Positions 19,914-62,166 of a stretch of 64,000 bases of DNA are shown here, in pieces (the first letter of the stretch is position 1; each line of letters starts with the position of its first letter). The notes under the pieces were generated by a model, which was given only the letters and a program-made list of their open reading frames with translations, was not told the DNA's origin and did no database searches. A program made the position numbers and the translations under genes. Origin of the DNA: Maricaulis maris (lineage in GTDB: Bacteria; Pseudomonadota; Alphaproteobacteria; Caulobacterales; Maricaulaceae); assembly GCF_036322705.1 (NCBI RefSeq), contig NZ_AP027270.1:372001-436000 (forward strand), given 5' to 3'.

Positions 19914-20852
19914 TCAGCTCCCGAATATCTCGTCCAGTGTGGCGCCGATGATAGCGTCTTCCTTGAGGAAGGCATCATGGCCGTAGACAGAGCTGAGGGT
20001 GATGAGTCGGCCTTTGGGGGTGTGACTGGCGGCCTCGGCGATCTGGTCGGCGGGAACCAGCCGGTCTTCCAGGGCAGCGAGATAGGTGACCGGACAGCGG
20101 ATCTGGCTGACATCGACCCGGTGCGCGTCCATCGAGCGGGACAGGGCGAGAAAACGCTGTGGATCGACTGTTTCGGCCCAGGCCTTGCCGCGGGCACCGA
20201 GATAGGCGGTGACCCCGTCGGCATCGCGGCTGTTCGCGTCCGGCGCGGCGAAGCGGTCCTCGAATTCCTCCGGCGTGCGATAGGTCGTCATGGCGAGGCG
20301 TCGGGCCAGGTCGAGCCCGGCCTTGCCGTCGCCGAGACGAATGGCCAGCTCAACCGTGTCGCGCTGGATCGAGCGCCAGGCCTTGGCCATCTCGCTGGAG
20401 CGGTCGGCGGCCGAGATCACAACGAGTTCGCGCACCCGCTCCGGGGCCAGCGCGGCGAGGGCGAGCCCGATCATGCCGCCATAGGAGGACCCGACAATGG
20501 CGAGGTCGCGAATATGGGCGGCGTCGGCCAGCGCCAGGATGGCGCGGGCCTGGTCCTGTGTGCTCGGGAAGGGGGGAATGTCCGCCCCAATGAAATCGAA
20601 GGAGAGAATGCGATAGCGATTGGTGTCGATCGACTTTCCGGCGCCGGCCTGCTGCCGCCACCAGCCTTGCCCGGTCACCGTGTCGGACACACGGCGATCC
20701 GAGGATATGCCGCCCAGCACGAGGACCGCCGGTGCGCCCTCCGGACCGGCGACCCGTCCCGTGACCCGGACCGGCGAGCCGCTCGTGGTCAGGGCAATGG
20801 TCGAGATATCGCGACAGCGCAGGGCGGGCGGATGTTCCAGGGTGACGCTCAT
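19914..20852 (-). CDS. metX: homoserine O-acyltransferase, MetX family
   Basis: A 312-residue alpha/beta-hydrolase-fold acyltransferase that activates homoserine with an acetyl or succinyl group. The nucleophile is Ser123 in GSSYGGMIGLALA. The rest of the triad is expected in LAALEDRLVPADQI (Asp) and SSVYGHDAFLKED (His); the GHDAFL block is typical of MetX. It is shorter than the usual 370-380 residues. Which acyl donor it uses cannot be told here. The ATG at 20852 overlaps the hom stop by 4 bases, so translation is coupled; metB follows one base after its stop. Confidence 0.85.
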   Translation of the reverse strand: MSVTLEHPPALRCRDISTIALTTSGSPVRVTGRVAGPEGAPAVLVLGGISSDRRVSDTVTGQGWWRQQAGAGKSIDTNRYRILSFDFIGADIPPFPSTQDQARAILALADAAHIRDLAIVGSSYGGMIGLALAALAPERVRELVVISAADRSSEMAKAWRSIQRDTVELAIRLGDGKAGLDLARRLAMTTYRTPEEFEDRFAAPDANSRDADGVTAYLGARGKAWAETVDPQRFLALSRSMDAHRVDVSQIRCPVTYLAALEDRLVPADQIAEAASHTPKGRLITLSSVYGHDAFLKEDAIIGATLDEIFGS

Positions 20853-21841
20853 CGCGGCGCTCCATCGGCCAGCAGGGCGCGGACATCGGACAGGACCGAA
20901 CCCGCCGTCGGGGCCTGACCGGCGCCCTTGCCGTTGAGGATGATCGAGATGCCGCTGGCACAACTGACCTCGACCGCATTCTCCTCGTTTTCGACCCGGG
21001 CCAGGGCGTGATCTTCCGGCAGAGCAATCAGGCGGACGCTGGCGGAGATGCCGTCTTCGGTCGCGACCAGTTCGGCGACCTGGCGATAACGCAGACCGTT
21101 CTCGCGGGCACCGAGGATTTGCCCGACCGAGAGGTCGAACAGGCTGTCGGCTTCAATGGCGTGCGGATCAGGGGCGATGTCGAAGGCGGCGCGGGCGATC
21201 AGGGCCAGTTTGGCGGCGGCATCCAGCCCGTCGAGATCGGCGCTGGGGTCCTCCTCGGCAAACCCGGCGGCTTGGGCGGCGGTGATCGCCTCGTCAAACC
21301 CGACCCCCTTTTCCAGCAGGCCGAGCACGAAATTCGAGGTGCCGTTGAGGACGCCGCGCACCCTTGTGACGCGCTCGCCGGAGGCTTTCAGGCGGGCCAC
21401 GGTTTCCAGCACCGGCACGCCGCCGCCGACTGCTGCGGAATAGGCAAAGCCGTTGCCGGCCTTGCGGGCCCGGGCTTCGAGATCCGGGCGACGGGCAATG
21501 ACCGCCTTGTTGGCCGAGATGACATGAATGCCACGCTCGACGGCGAGGGCGAGCGCCTTCTCGGCGGTCGCACAATCGGGCAGCGCGTCGATGACCAGAT
21601 CCGGGCCGGTGTCGAAGGCGGCGTGGATATCAGTCAGCCAGGCATAGCGGTCATCACCCTTGCGACGCGGCTTGCGGGTGATGATCGCCGCGATCTCGAC
21701 CCGGTCAGCCATCGCCTCGAGGCCCGCGAGAACACCGGCATTCACCGTCCCGCATCCAAGCAGGACGACGCGCAGGCGCGGCGCATGGGCCGCCACCGGC
21801 GCGGGGGAGAGGGGGTAGTCAAGCGCTGCAACCAAAGTCAT
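20849..21841 (-). CDS. hom: homoserine dehydrogenase without ACT domain
   Basis: A 330-residue enzyme that reduces aspartate semialdehyde to homoserine. It has the NAD(P) motif VVLLGCGTVNAG, then ISANKAVIA, SAAVGGGVPVLETV, VRGVLNGTSNFVL and EEDPSADLDGLDAAAKLALIA, all hallmarks of the family. The usual C-terminal ACT regulatory domain of about 90 residues is absent, so feedback by threonine through that domain is not expected. As first gene of a methionine operon under a SAM-II riboswitch it may be a methionine-dedicated isozyme (inference). The ribosome site is weak and lies in a small hairpin just upstream. Confidence 0.92.
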   Translation of the reverse strand: MTLVAALDYPLSPAPVAAHAPRLRVVLLGCGTVNAGVLAGLEAMADRVEIAAIITRKPRRKGDDRYAWLTDIHAAFDTGPDLVIDALPDCATAEKALALAVERGIHVISANKAVIARRPDLEARARKAGNGFAYSAAVGGGVPVLETVARLKASGERVTRVRGVLNGTSNFVLGLLEKGVGFDEAITAAQAAGFAEEDPSADLDGLDAAAKLALIARAAFDIAPDPHAIEADSLFDLSVGQILGARENGLRYRQVAELVATEDGISASVRLIALPEDHALARVENEENAVEVSCASGISIILNGKGAGQAPTAGSVLSDVRALLADGAPR

Positions 21842-21868: not shown

Positions 21869-21938
21869 CGCGGCACGCCGATTGCGGGATACTGCCGAGG
21901 CGAAAGGGATGTGTGGCGATTGCCGCTGCCTCGTCCGA

Positions 21939-21993
21939 TCCGCTTTAGCCGCACTTGTTCCGCGCCCGCAAGCTAGACATCAAATCGGCGCGA
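21939..21993 (-). ncRNA. SAM-II riboswitch (SAM_alpha, metA-type leader)
   Basis: Read on the minus strand, the leader follows the SAM-II aptamer order: TCGCGCC (5' arm of P1), GATTTGA (loop 1), a short variable part ending in CTTGC, GGGCGCG (3' arm of P1), then AACAAGTGCGGCTAAAGCGG, which carries the conserved GCTAAA of the pseudoknot strand. Sequence order and spacing match the known structure class almost base for base. SAM-II riboswitches bind S-adenosylmethionine and repress methionine-synthesis genes in alphaproteobacteria. Here it precedes hom-metX-metB. Confidence 0.9.
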
Positions 21994-21998
21994 CTTCA

Positions 21999-22026
21999 CG
22001 TATAAAGATATGTTTATATGTGTCAA
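21999..22026 (-). promoter_or_regulatory. sigma-70-type promoter of hom-metX-metB
   Basis: On the minus strand a perfect TTGACA (22026-22021) is followed after 16 bases by TATACG (22004-21999). Transcription would start about at base 21992, the first base of the riboswitch, so the aptamer sits at the very 5' end of the transcript. The surrounding AT-rich segment contrasts with the GC-rich neighbourhood. Confidence 0.75.
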
Positions 22027-22050: not shown

Positions 22051-22357
22051 CGCCACGGTGTCTCCACCTGGCGGTCTGGGCAGTAGAGGGGTGCGAGGTG
22101 CCTTGCCGGTGCCTTGCTATGGAAGTTGTGTAGGTGGCGCCGGGGGCACCTCGCACACGGAGATTTGGTCGGCGCCGTTACCGGCCCCGTCTCGAAACCG
22201 ACAGGAACAAACGGTCGAGCTTTGTGCCGCCGTCCTGCCGATGGCCACGCCGGGTTTTGTGGTGGTCAAATCCACAAGACCGGACGAGCTCCGCAATCCC
22301 CGCACCCCCGGATAACCGGTCCGAGCCTCGAGTTGGCGCGGGAACACGAGGAGTATG
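22051..22357 (+). ncRNA. candidate structured RNA element, copy A
   Basis: This region shares a near-identical core of about 160 bases (22145-22255) and looser flanks with 60988-61285. GTGCGAGGTGCC (22091-22102) pairs with GGCACCTCGCAC (22145-22156). Inside it CCGGTGCC (22106-22113) pairs with GGCGCCGG (22136-22143). A later stem has TTGTGG (22257-22262) and CCACAA (22272-22277). In the other copy these stems keep pairing with different bases, which points to RNA structure. T-G pairs at 22110/22139 and 22256/22278 are valid only if the plus strand is the RNA. No known family was recognised. Confidence 0.5.
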
Positions 22358-22403
22358 CGCCGGGTGCCACGGGGCGGGGACAAGTCTTGTGATTTTTTTC
22401 TTC

Positions 22404-22521
22404 ACACACCGTCATTCCGGCGACGGCCGTGACCCAGATTGCGACGCAAGCTGTTGCCATGTTTGGCGAAATCGCGTGTGCGAGACTGGGTCCTGACTTG
22501 CGTCAGGATGACGGTTTGTGG
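22404..22521. repeat. intergenic palindromic element
   Basis: About 118 bases with inverted ends: CACACCGTCATTCC on the left and ATGACGGTTTGTG on the right, with an inner pair GACCCAG (22431-22437) and CTGGGTC. Elements with CCGTCAT/ATGACGG ends recur at 30772 and in the array at 61402-62146, but the interior here is different. Confidence 0.6.
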
Positions 22522-22934
22522 GGCGCACAGCGGGGATAAGCTCGAACTTTTCTTCCCCATTCCATGGGGAAGTGGGCCGAGGCGAAGCCTCTGGTCGATG
22601 GGGTCCGAGCGGAGCGAGGAAAACCCATGCCGCTTGCGGCGTCACCCCTCCGTCTCGCCCTTCGGGCGCGACACCTCCCACGATGTGGGGAGGAAAAGAT
22701 CACATTTTTCCCGGCCGCAGTCCCGCAAAAGCGGGGCGAAGAGCCGGGACCAACGAAACCCTCTAGCAAGCGATGAGTCTCCCGTCGGTCCCGGATGGCG
22801 CTGTGCGCCTCCGGGAAAAATATAGGGTGATGAAAACGAGGAGAAGCCTCATGCCGCCTGCGGCGTCATCCCACCGTCTCATCGCTTCGCGCTGATCCCC
22901 CTCCCCACGATGTGGGGAGGAACAGGTCCAGCCT
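22522..22934. other. intergenic stretch of small hairpins, no gene seen
   Basis: It holds a TTCCCCAT/ATGGGGAA hairpin near 22554-22573, two copies of a CTCCCCAC-GAT-GTGGGGAG type hairpin (near 22676 and 22899), and the repeat at 22703-22822. The open frames here are short, arginine- or proline-rich and change with each repeat, so none is called. Confidence 0.5.
22703..22822. repeat. palindromic repeat with TTTTTCCCGG/CCGGGAAAAAT ends, copy 1
   Basis: The ends ATTTTTCCCGG (left) and CCGGGAAAAAT (right) are inverted. The inner block GATGAGTCTCCCG-TGGTCCCGGAT-like sequence is shared with the second copy at 30522-30640. It is about 120 bases and non-coding. Confidence 0.65.
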
Positions 22935-60477: not shown

Positions 60478-60936
60478 TCACGGTTTGCCTTCGCCCTTCC
60501 GGCGTCCACCGACATGCGCCCAGCTCGCCTCCCAGCGGGGTTCCTCCACCGGGTATCCGGCCTGACGGGCGCGGCGGATGCGTTCGGCATCCTCTTCGAT
60601 CTGCAGGTCGATCTCGACCTCCTCGACCGTGGCGCCGACCGCATTGTACCAGGCGACCCTCGCGGCGCGCCGGGCGGCTTCGGTCTCGTCATTCAGGCGG
60701 ATCTGCTCGCGGGCCAGTGCAACACTGGCCCGTGACTGGGCAATGAAAGTCCCGGCCAGATCGAGCAATTTGCGGGCGACCCTGTCATCGCCCCTGTCCA
60801 GCGCCAGGGCCGCCGCTCCCAGGCAGTGCCGTCCGACCCGCGGCGCATCGGGCGGCTCTCCGCTCAGTCGTGACTGGAGCGTCATCGGGCACTTGCGCTG
60901 GCGCTGACGATGGCGGGCGGGGAGCCGACGTGACAT
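60478..60936 (-). CDS. hypothetical protein, about 152 residues
   Basis: Not recognised. It has a basic N-terminus (MSRRLPARHRQRQRK), then an alanine-rich helical part (LDRGDDRVARKLLDLAGTFIAQSRASVALAREQIRL) and an acidic patch EEVEIDLQIEEDAERIRRARQAG, so mostly helical and soluble. ATG 60936 is supported by GGAAAGGA eight bases upstream; ATG 60885 is an internal alternative. It converges on the substrate-binding protein gene with a 33-base gap. The 3' neighbour and lack of known motifs leave its role open. Confidence 0.6.
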   Translation of the reverse strand: MSRRLPARHRQRQRKCPMTLQSRLSGEPPDAPRVGRHCLGAAALALDRGDDRVARKLLDLAGTFIAQSRASVALAREQIRLNDETEAARRAARVAWYNAVGATVEEVEIDLQIEEDAERIRRARQAGYPVEEPRWEASWAHVGGRRKGEGKP

Positions 60937-60987
60937 GGGCGATCCTTTCCTGAAGGTGTGCGTGGCAGGGGCGGGCAGGTTTGCCCG

Positions 60988-61285
60988 CGCCACGGTGTTG
61001 CCACCTGGCGATATGAGGGGTGCGGGGCCCGGCCGGTGCCGGATGGCTTGTGTTTATGTGAGTGGCACCGGAGGTACCCCGCACACGGAGATTTGGTCGG
61101 AGCCGTTACCGGCCCCGTCTCGAAACCGACAGGAACAAACGGTAGAGCTTTGTGCCGCCGTCCTGCCGATGGCCACGCCGGGTTGGTCTGGCGGTGTTTC
61201 CAGACAACCGGACGAGCTCCGTCCTCCCAGCGCCCCCGGATCACCAATCCGGGCCTCGAGCAGCGCGGGACGGGAAGGAGTATGG
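60988..61285 (+). ncRNA. candidate structured RNA element, copy B
   Basis: Second copy of the element at 22051-22357. GTGCGGGG (61020-61027) pairs with CCCCGCAC (61077-61084), CCGGTGCC (61033-61040) with GGCACCGG (61064-61071), and GGTCTGG (61185-61191) with CCAGAC (61200-61205). The core from CACACGGAGATTTGGTCGG to ATGGCCACGCCGGG differs from copy A at only two places. Stem positions differ in compensating pairs. Transcription and function are not shown. Confidence 0.5.
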
Positions 61286-62166
61286 GGCGGGCGAGAAGGG
61301 GGGCGGATAAGGTAGGTGGGAAAGCGAGTATTTGCAGTGGGTTAGGGCGGCGCGGCGGGGGATAAGCCGGTCGACTTCGATCCCTTTGATCGCTTCATAC
61401 CCACCGTCATCCCACGGTCGCGGCAAGGCCGCGATCCGGGGGACCTCAGCCCGGCCGTCGACGGGGAAGCGCAGGTCCCCCGGATGCCCGCTTTGCGGTC
61501 ACCGTGGGATGACGGTGGGGTTGGGTTTTGCGAAGTGCGTGCTGGCGCCCGCTTCGTCCTTCAAACCTTGCCGGGATGACGCAATATCCGCTCCAACACC
61601 ATCACCCCCAATTCCCCACCGTCATCCCCCGGCTTGTCCGGGGGACCTCAGCCAGGCCGTCGACGGGGAAGCACAGGTCCCCCGGATGCCCGCTTCGCGG
61701 CCACCGTGGGATGACGGTGGGGTTGGGTGTTGCGAAGAGCGTGCCGGCGCCCGCTTCGCCCTTCACCCCTTGCCGGGAGTGCGCCGCATCCGCTCCAACA
61801 CCATCACCCCAATTCCCCACCGTCATCCCACGGTCGCGGCACAGCCGCGATCCGGGGGACCTCAGCCAGGCCGTCGACGGGGAAGCGCAGGTCCCCGGAT
61901 GCCCGCTTCGCGGTCACCGTGGGATGACGGAGGAGTTGGGTGTTTCGAAGAGCGTGCCGGCGCCCGCTTCGCCCTTCACCCCTTGCCGGGAGTGCGCCGT
62001 AGCCGCTCCAACACCATCACCCCAATTTCCCACCGTCATCCCACGGTCGCGGCAAGGCCGCGATCCGGGGGACCTCAGCCAGGCCGTCGACGGGGAAGCA
62101 CAGGTCCCCCGGATGCCCGCTTCGCGGCCACCGTGGGATGACGGTGGGGTGGGGGGTGAGGTGGAA
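61286..62166. other. intergenic region dominated by repeats, no gene seen
   Basis: From the end of RNA copy B to the terminator at 62167. Long open frames cross the repeats, but their translations repeat with them and lack start sites or ribosome sites, so no gene is called. The total gene-free stretch from 60937 to 62224 is 1288 bases. Confidence 0.5.
61402..62146. repeat. tandem array of four palindromic units with conserved spacers
   Basis: Units start at 61402, 61617, 61818 and 62031, a period of 201-215 bases. Each unit is about 104-117 bases with CCGTCATCCCACGG and CCGTGGGATGACGG ends and an inner GGGGGACC/GGTCCCCC stem. The roughly 98-base spacers are also near-identical (TTGCGAAGAGCGTGCCGGCG and CTCCAACACCATCACCCC). 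Unit 2 has a shortened left arm. A fifth, isolated copy without the spacer is at 30772. Confidence 0.9.

Follow-up and report, generated by a model that had tools for sequence, protein, structure and literature searches.

The 64,000-nucleotide stretch of DNA analysed here (the window) contains two copies of a structured RNA, both assigned to subfamily A and both read from the minus strand. Copy 1 (22051-22385, minus strand, model match of 122.9 bits) was delimited with a 25-copy alignment and consensus fold; helix coordinates place its 5' end at approximately 22385 and its terminal hairpin at 22051-22073 (minus strand), and no ORF of the recurrent kind described below lies behind it. Its core (22154-22295, minus strand), matched by covariance models R1 and R2, forms a three-way junction; CGGAG/CTCCG closes it, and its arms occupy 22289-22244, 22242-22197 and 22189-22170. 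Copy 2 (60988-61312, minus strand, 112.2 bits), with its core at 61082-61223 by model match and its terminal hairpin at 60988-61010 by helix coordinates, lies directly upstream of a small ORF on the same strand. The 51-nt linker between them (60937-60987) carries a ribosome-binding-like GGAAAGGA ahead of the ATG, and the ORF (60478-60936, minus strand) encodes an uncharacterised 152-aa protein of ORF family 1, relatives of which are found behind RNA copies in other Maricaulis genomes. A preliminary description of this DNA had recognised the two segments as alike, and they do align end to end at 79%, with a shared core of more than 100 bases (approximately 22153-22256) that contains two differences. 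The segment it gave for copy 1 (22051-22357) is real, but the conserved unit continues past 22357 to about 22385. It overlooked the small ORF behind copy 2 and the recurrence of ORF-bearing copies in other species.

Based on a reading of the translations, copy 1 has as neighbours a ferredoxin-NADP reductase-like gene and, on the other side, a SAM-II-like element with a homoserine dehydrogenase-like gene, while copy 2 neighbours a deoxyhypusine synthase-like gene and the small ORF. The SAM-II (RF00521)-like stretch (21924-22001, minus strand) is a riboswitch candidate scoring 27.9 bits (gathering score 36); it precedes the homoserine dehydrogenase-like gene (20849-21841), is conserved in M. maris, and is separated from copy 1 by a region that includes a TTGACA-like box. 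The stretch upstream of copy 1 (22386-22541, minus strand) is a module of some 156 nt that contains a REP-like palindrome and was defined by motif spacing, pattern and alignment with the M. maris orthologue; it starts with CTTATCCCCG, resembling the 5' end of the RNA itself (CTTGTCCCCG here). Across 43 copies in the host genome (G000), G063 and G064, a further TTATCC-type motif was found 156-158 nt before the 5' motif of the RNA in 18 copies and 146-148 nt before it in four more, and where these regions could be aligned a REP-like palindromic module lies between the two motifs. The intervening sequence represents at least two REP types. Just upstream of copy 2, a 213-base REP-like unit is repeated in tandem (61426-62154; 3.5 copies, 89% matches), and relatives of it adjoin RNA copies elsewhere in the host genome.

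The consensus fold of the 25 full-length copies consists of a 5' stem, the three-way junction (arms of 16, 9+6 and 7 pairs), a 12+7-pair stem and the terminal hairpin, ten helices in all. Five partial copies (L025, L026, L031, L032, L033) were left out before alignment, as were two contig-end copies (L012, L024) from alignments A2 and A3, so that 25 of 27 were used. In the MAFFT alignment A3, which is the source of the full-length fold itself, 97.3% of cells pair, compared to 37%-43% when the partner is slid, and 31 of 85 pairs are changed on both sides. For the core, the 142-144 nt spanned by R1 and R2, 53 sequences (52 distinct) show changes to both partners in 31 of the 39 pairs, and none of 500 shuffles reached any of the covariation measures. 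Paired cells amount to 90.8% of this core alignment (36%-46% when the partner is slid), which leans towards structure because it was fitted to the model. Pairing is retained in copies without an ORF as well. Selection acting on the RNA fold is strongly supported. The compensated pairs cited in the preliminary description are present in the sequence: A22096-T22151, replaced by G61025-C61079 in copy 2, sits in the 12-pair helix (AU in 15 and GC in 10 of the 25 copies), and the other two (22259/22275 and 22257/22277) belong to the apical stem of the 16-pair arm. Further copies lacking covariation had been named as grounds for abandoning the idea; there are many further copies, and these do covary.

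We assessed which strand is the RNA using the same 25 copies. The minus-strand consensus fold reaches -118 kcal/mol with 85 pairs, compared to -72 kcal/mol with 67 pairs (18 double-changed) for the plus strand. Within the minus fold, itself chosen on the minus strand, 267 wobble cells stand against 9 A-C cells. A fairer test is provided by the 44 pairs common to both folds, where wobbles that require a minus-strand reading occur in 12 columns and those that require a plus-strand reading in two. The single-sequence energies slightly favour the plus strand (mean -157.9 versus -152.0 for minus), which has the lower energy in 21 of 25 copies, the minus strand in four. The plus strand, proposed in the preliminary description from two T-G pairs (22110/22139 and 22256/22278) that read as A-C mismatches on the minus strand, was rejected on the consensus fold and wobble pattern despite these slightly lower energies.

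No Rfam 15 family matched the window at gathering scores. In a permissive search of 601 bases around copy 1, the sole overlap with the element was Ms_AS-1 (22.6 of 37 bits, minus strand), and three matches obtained for 12 loci from several subfamilies all lay off the element cores; HEARO/OMEGA (RF02033) was not matched by the RNA in these same searches. Near a M. parjimensis copy, outside the element, Rfam returned an rpsB sRNA match of 42 bits (gathering score 40; L059, 1022-1122, minus strand). A sigma-70 scan of two regions returned no site, and open-licence literature, searched by title and abstract, yielded no paper on the element. The element is an uncatalogued structured RNA of about 335 nt. 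The proposal of an undescribed RNA selected for its folding is supported, with no Rfam family and covariation far above the controls, whereas the two parts of it that concerned strand and copy number are not: in place of two copies, the host genome (one contig, 3.14 Mb) has six by DNA search, 14 by R1 and 16 by R2.

Copies of the RNA were found by R1 in 17 of 19 Maricaulis genomes, and by R2 in 19 of 137 genomes of the family, namely those 17 Maricaulis genomes plus G004 and G031, each the sole R2 match within its genus. Copy number ranges from zero (G071, G079) to at least 23 per genome by R2. In the order sample, R1 matched 19 of 398 genomes, one of which (G254, L066, E 0.0014) is probably spurious, fitting the family poorly outside a few helices, and was left out of alignment A7. 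R2, run under the tighter filter settings applied to large sets, matched one of 385 genomes in the class sample, that of the window itself. A pattern scan of named genomes returned 73 stretches, 69 of them in Maricaulis records and four in one alphaproteobacterial MAG. The exact pattern of the element was absent from the viral contigs scanned, and a phage origin was rejected, no phage record having matched. A plasmid origin was likewise rejected: the single match, of 56 bases inside a LysR gene of one plasmid, was judged to be due to chance. In what was searched, the RNA element is restricted to one bacterial family.

An ORF behind the RNA was identified for 19 of the 145 copies examined (105, then 40 further), the other 126 having none of this kind. 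Eleven of the 19 genomes have ORF-bearing copies, each with one or two, and among the copies examined none was seen in the remaining eight. Their order is RNA, linker, ribosome-binding site and ORF, with 35-51 nt from hairpin to ATG in the ten measured (51 in copy 2 of the window); two family-3 members (G065, G062) have inserted sequence and roughly 160-190 nt. Two further candidates, G000_2386k and G063_3:521k, were excluded from the ORF count; each has a correctly spaced ATG whose frame continues into the antisense strand of an adjacent gene. Family 1 occurs in ten genomes (the M. maris member is frameshifted), family 2 in two and family 3 in six (one member is cut by the end of its contig); G076 has a singleton, counted by position alone. 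In ORF-less A copies such as L010, L020 and L027, an AAAGGAG stretch stands behind the terminal hairpin; next comes a long hairpin (CCTTCCCGCC...GGCGGGAAGG), at the position where the gene starts in ORF-bearing copies.

The proteins seen whole are 89-172 aa long. In families 1 and 2, 6-12 of the first 22 residues are basic; in the window ORF, 8 of the 22 are R, K or H. Pairwise dN/dS was 0.27-0.57 in family 1 (0.37-0.41 for the window member) and 0.26-0.49 in families 2 and 3; the three ORF families are under purifying selection. None of 15 ORF proteins exceeded a cut-off in Pfam or NCBIfam, whether for a RuvC/HNH nuclease, a toxin family or any other, and PHROGs and PADLOC gave nothing convincing. 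Weak profile matches, such as TraC (E 0.0054, for the window ORF) and phrog_20344 (E 0.006), fell below every cut-off and were not taken as assignments; among PDB sequences, only a designed protein was returned (E 0.12). A family-1 profile had a single match in each of 11 among the 137 family genomes, only a piece in G063 and G068, and matched 12 of 398 order genomes, with one weak match outside the genus. Its order-level match in G421 had an E value of 1e-5. Homology between families 1 and 3, suggested by eye, is not claimed given an hhalign probability of 0.1%, that is, no detectable homology. With these two families not detectably homologous and the G076 singleton counted by position, some ORFs may be captured neighbours.

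Copies have sharp ends in common. Near-identical copies in M. alexandrii share both ends (CTTATCC at the 5' end, the terminal hairpin at the 3' end) within different flanks, as do six G031 copies and seven host B copies, among which host copy 85k has a deviating 3' end. No target duplication was seen by eye among the M. alexandrii copies compared. Neighbours on the RNA strand differ between copies and often run the opposite way, and orientations are varied. We compared loci between species, one genome per species, for 13 of 16 host copies, 16 of 18 in G064 and 14 of 16 in G063. For 7 of the 13 host copies, G063 or G064 has an RNA copy whose left and right flanks are both homologous, and at two of these sites, 210k and 3050k, the species carry different subfamilies. 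A tree was built from 68 copies (the 43 from the locus comparison and 25 chosen others); within subfamilies, its grouping is largely by genome: the seven host B copies form one cluster, separate from the partners of 1107k in G063 and G064. An exception is the ORF-bearing copy of the window, which clusters with its positional partner in M. maris. Copies often keep their locus between species, yet are closer to other copies in their own genome than to positional partners, which points to homogenisation between copies on top of earlier spread. Some loci have flanks that each match a different place, as would be expected if copies recombine. The left flank of host 765k and the right flank of 2049k (or vice versa) both match a single M. 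maris copy, C1:529k in G063, and rearrangement breakpoints are located at these RNA copies. An empty-site comparison at one locus, 765k, met a rearranged region of broken synteny; in G068, the orthologue of the left flank had a 5'-truncated copy next to it.

Our preferred explanation, held tentatively and at slightly less than an even chance, is an undescribed Maricaulaceae element made up of an RNA and a small protein, in which most copies are ORF-less derivatives supported in trans by the RNA-protein pair. Its constant part would be the structured RNA of approximately 335 nt read from the minus strand, and a complete element would comprise this RNA, usually 35-51 nt with a ribosome-binding site, and a gene for a protein of 89-172 aa. 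Copy 2 of the window with its ORF would then be a complete element and copy 1 an ORF-less derivative. The RNA is presumably transcribed and the basic protein may bind it, and the pair could support ORF-less copies through copying into new sites, gene conversion between sites, or both, much as an autonomous element sustains non-autonomous relatives; we infer that the element is mobile. This explanation draws on the covariation, the common sharp ends with different flanks and the range from 0 to at least 23 copies within one genus; on the recurrence of ORFs (three families and a singleton) at similar spacing with dN/dS of 0.26-0.57; and on RNA copies at orthologous loci (7/13), subfamily change at two of them and grouping by genome in the tree. 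Counting against it are the 126 of 145 copies without an ORF and the eight of 19 genomes in which the copies examined had none, the chance that some ORFs are captured neighbours, the frameshifted family-1 ORF of M. maris, the negative search for a mobilising enzyme and the single-sequence energies slightly favouring the plus strand. Somewhat doubtful, if a serious possibility, is the bolder reading that these loci constitute a new class of ribonucleoprotein element, pairing a constant structured RNA with small, basic proteins that diverge fast. One or two coding copies per genome would then sustain an RNA-only fleet, with cassette-like subfamily change at fixed loci and RNA- and protein-directed copying that needs no recognisable transposase or reverse transcriptase.

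The ORF-less majority, together with intergenic copies that have common ends, varied neighbours and orientations and a patchy range, would also suit a dispersed repeat like bcr or ERIC, selfish or passive, whose fold serves its own spread or affects neighbouring mRNAs and whose ORFs are chance neighbours. We consider this rather unlikely, as ORFs with ribosome-binding sites recur at similar spacing in three families and 11 genomes under purifying selection, and a fold of this complexity goes far beyond a hairpin. The order of RNA, linker, ribosome-binding site and ORF, and the AAAGGAG stretch kept in some ORF-less A copies, could instead reflect a cis-acting leader regulating translation or transcription of the small ORF (by protein autoregulation or a ligand), the other copies being decayed duplicates or leaders of other genes. 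That seems improbable given that most copies lead into no common gene, their RNA-strand neighbours differing and often running in the opposite direction, and that ORF-less copies keep their pairing too. The same gene order (RNA, hairpin, small ORF), shared with type III loci as described in PMC5086642, might indicate a toxin-antitoxin-like pair in which the RNA neutralises the small protein and RNA-only copies serve as extra antidotes, but the chance of this is slim: the RNA is no tandem array, no toxin family was matched, and RNA-only copies far outnumber ORFs. Slimmer still is the prospect of a single-stranded DNA structure for a recombinase or transposase rather than an RNA. The sharp ends, the terminal hairpin and the adjoining REP-like modules starting with a similar TTATCC motif would fit such a structure, G-T wobbles form in DNA too, and the host has two Y1 transposase genes; however, Y1 transposase (Y1_Tnp) occurs in only 5 of 19 genomes, and the conserved junctions and loops exceed the needs of a palindrome. 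Reverse transcriptase (RVT_1) was found in two of the 19 genomes (one over the cut-off) and a TnpB zinc ribbon in four at E 0.001 (one over the cut-off), the host being in neither group. G064, a single contig with 18 copies, has none of the three, implying that none of these enzymes is needed to keep copies. Among Y1_Tnp, RVT_1 and TnpB zinc ribbon matches across the 19 genomes, no mobilising enzyme was identified, and the element does not class with retro- or IS200/IS605-type elements on reverse transcriptase or Y1 transposase in its carriers.

Major systems have lain concealed behind structured RNAs next to arginine-rich ORFs in the past, as when HEARO proved to be an IscB guide (PMC9755519). 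The family described here offers a defined fold, small proteins of no known family and fixed-site copies that evolve in concert, and the RNA copies leading into a small gene hint at an unrecognised genetic element of RNA plus protein. The spread and homogenisation of a bacterial non-coding element without a recognised enzyme thereby become testable, and a cultured carrier exists (Maricaulis maris DSM 4734).

Ribosomal RNA operons, too, are present in several copies at conserved loci and are homogenised within a genome. The likeness concerns the mode of evolution only, that is, multi-copy conserved loci homogenised within genomes, whereas the Maricaulis RNA varies from 0 to at least 23 copies between species of one genus and is therefore dispensable. 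HEARO RNA copies without an ORF also occur. The likeness to HEARO/OMEGA with IscB is one of architecture only: as described in PMC9755519, HEARO is a large structured RNA directly upstream of a same-strand, arginine-rich ORF, later recognised as guiding IscB-type nucleases. The Maricaulis RNA cannot be counted as a member, having no RF02033 match and ORFs of 89-172 aa that match no nuclease family. It also differs in being confined, within the genomes searched, to one bacterial family. Type III toxin-antitoxin loci (ToxIN and relatives) share the gene order, with RNA, hairpin and small ORF on one strand (PMC5086642), but their RNAs are short tandem repeats, in contrast to one complex RNA with many RNA-only copies and no toxin homology. 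Within the element, copy 1 has only an 11-base unit in 1.9 copies and copy 2 no tandem array, and sequence profiles gave the ORF proteins no match to a ToxN-like family. The many intergenic copies and common fold of the element are as in a structured dispersed repeat. In this it resembles bcr1-bcr18 of the Bacillus cereus group and ERIC/RU of enterobacteria, dispersed intergenic repeats of which some have conserved RNA structure and some are transcribed (PMC3446304, PMC2267715, PMC2759123); it differs from them in its length of approximately 335 nt, its three-way-junction core and the recurrent small gene behind some of its copies.
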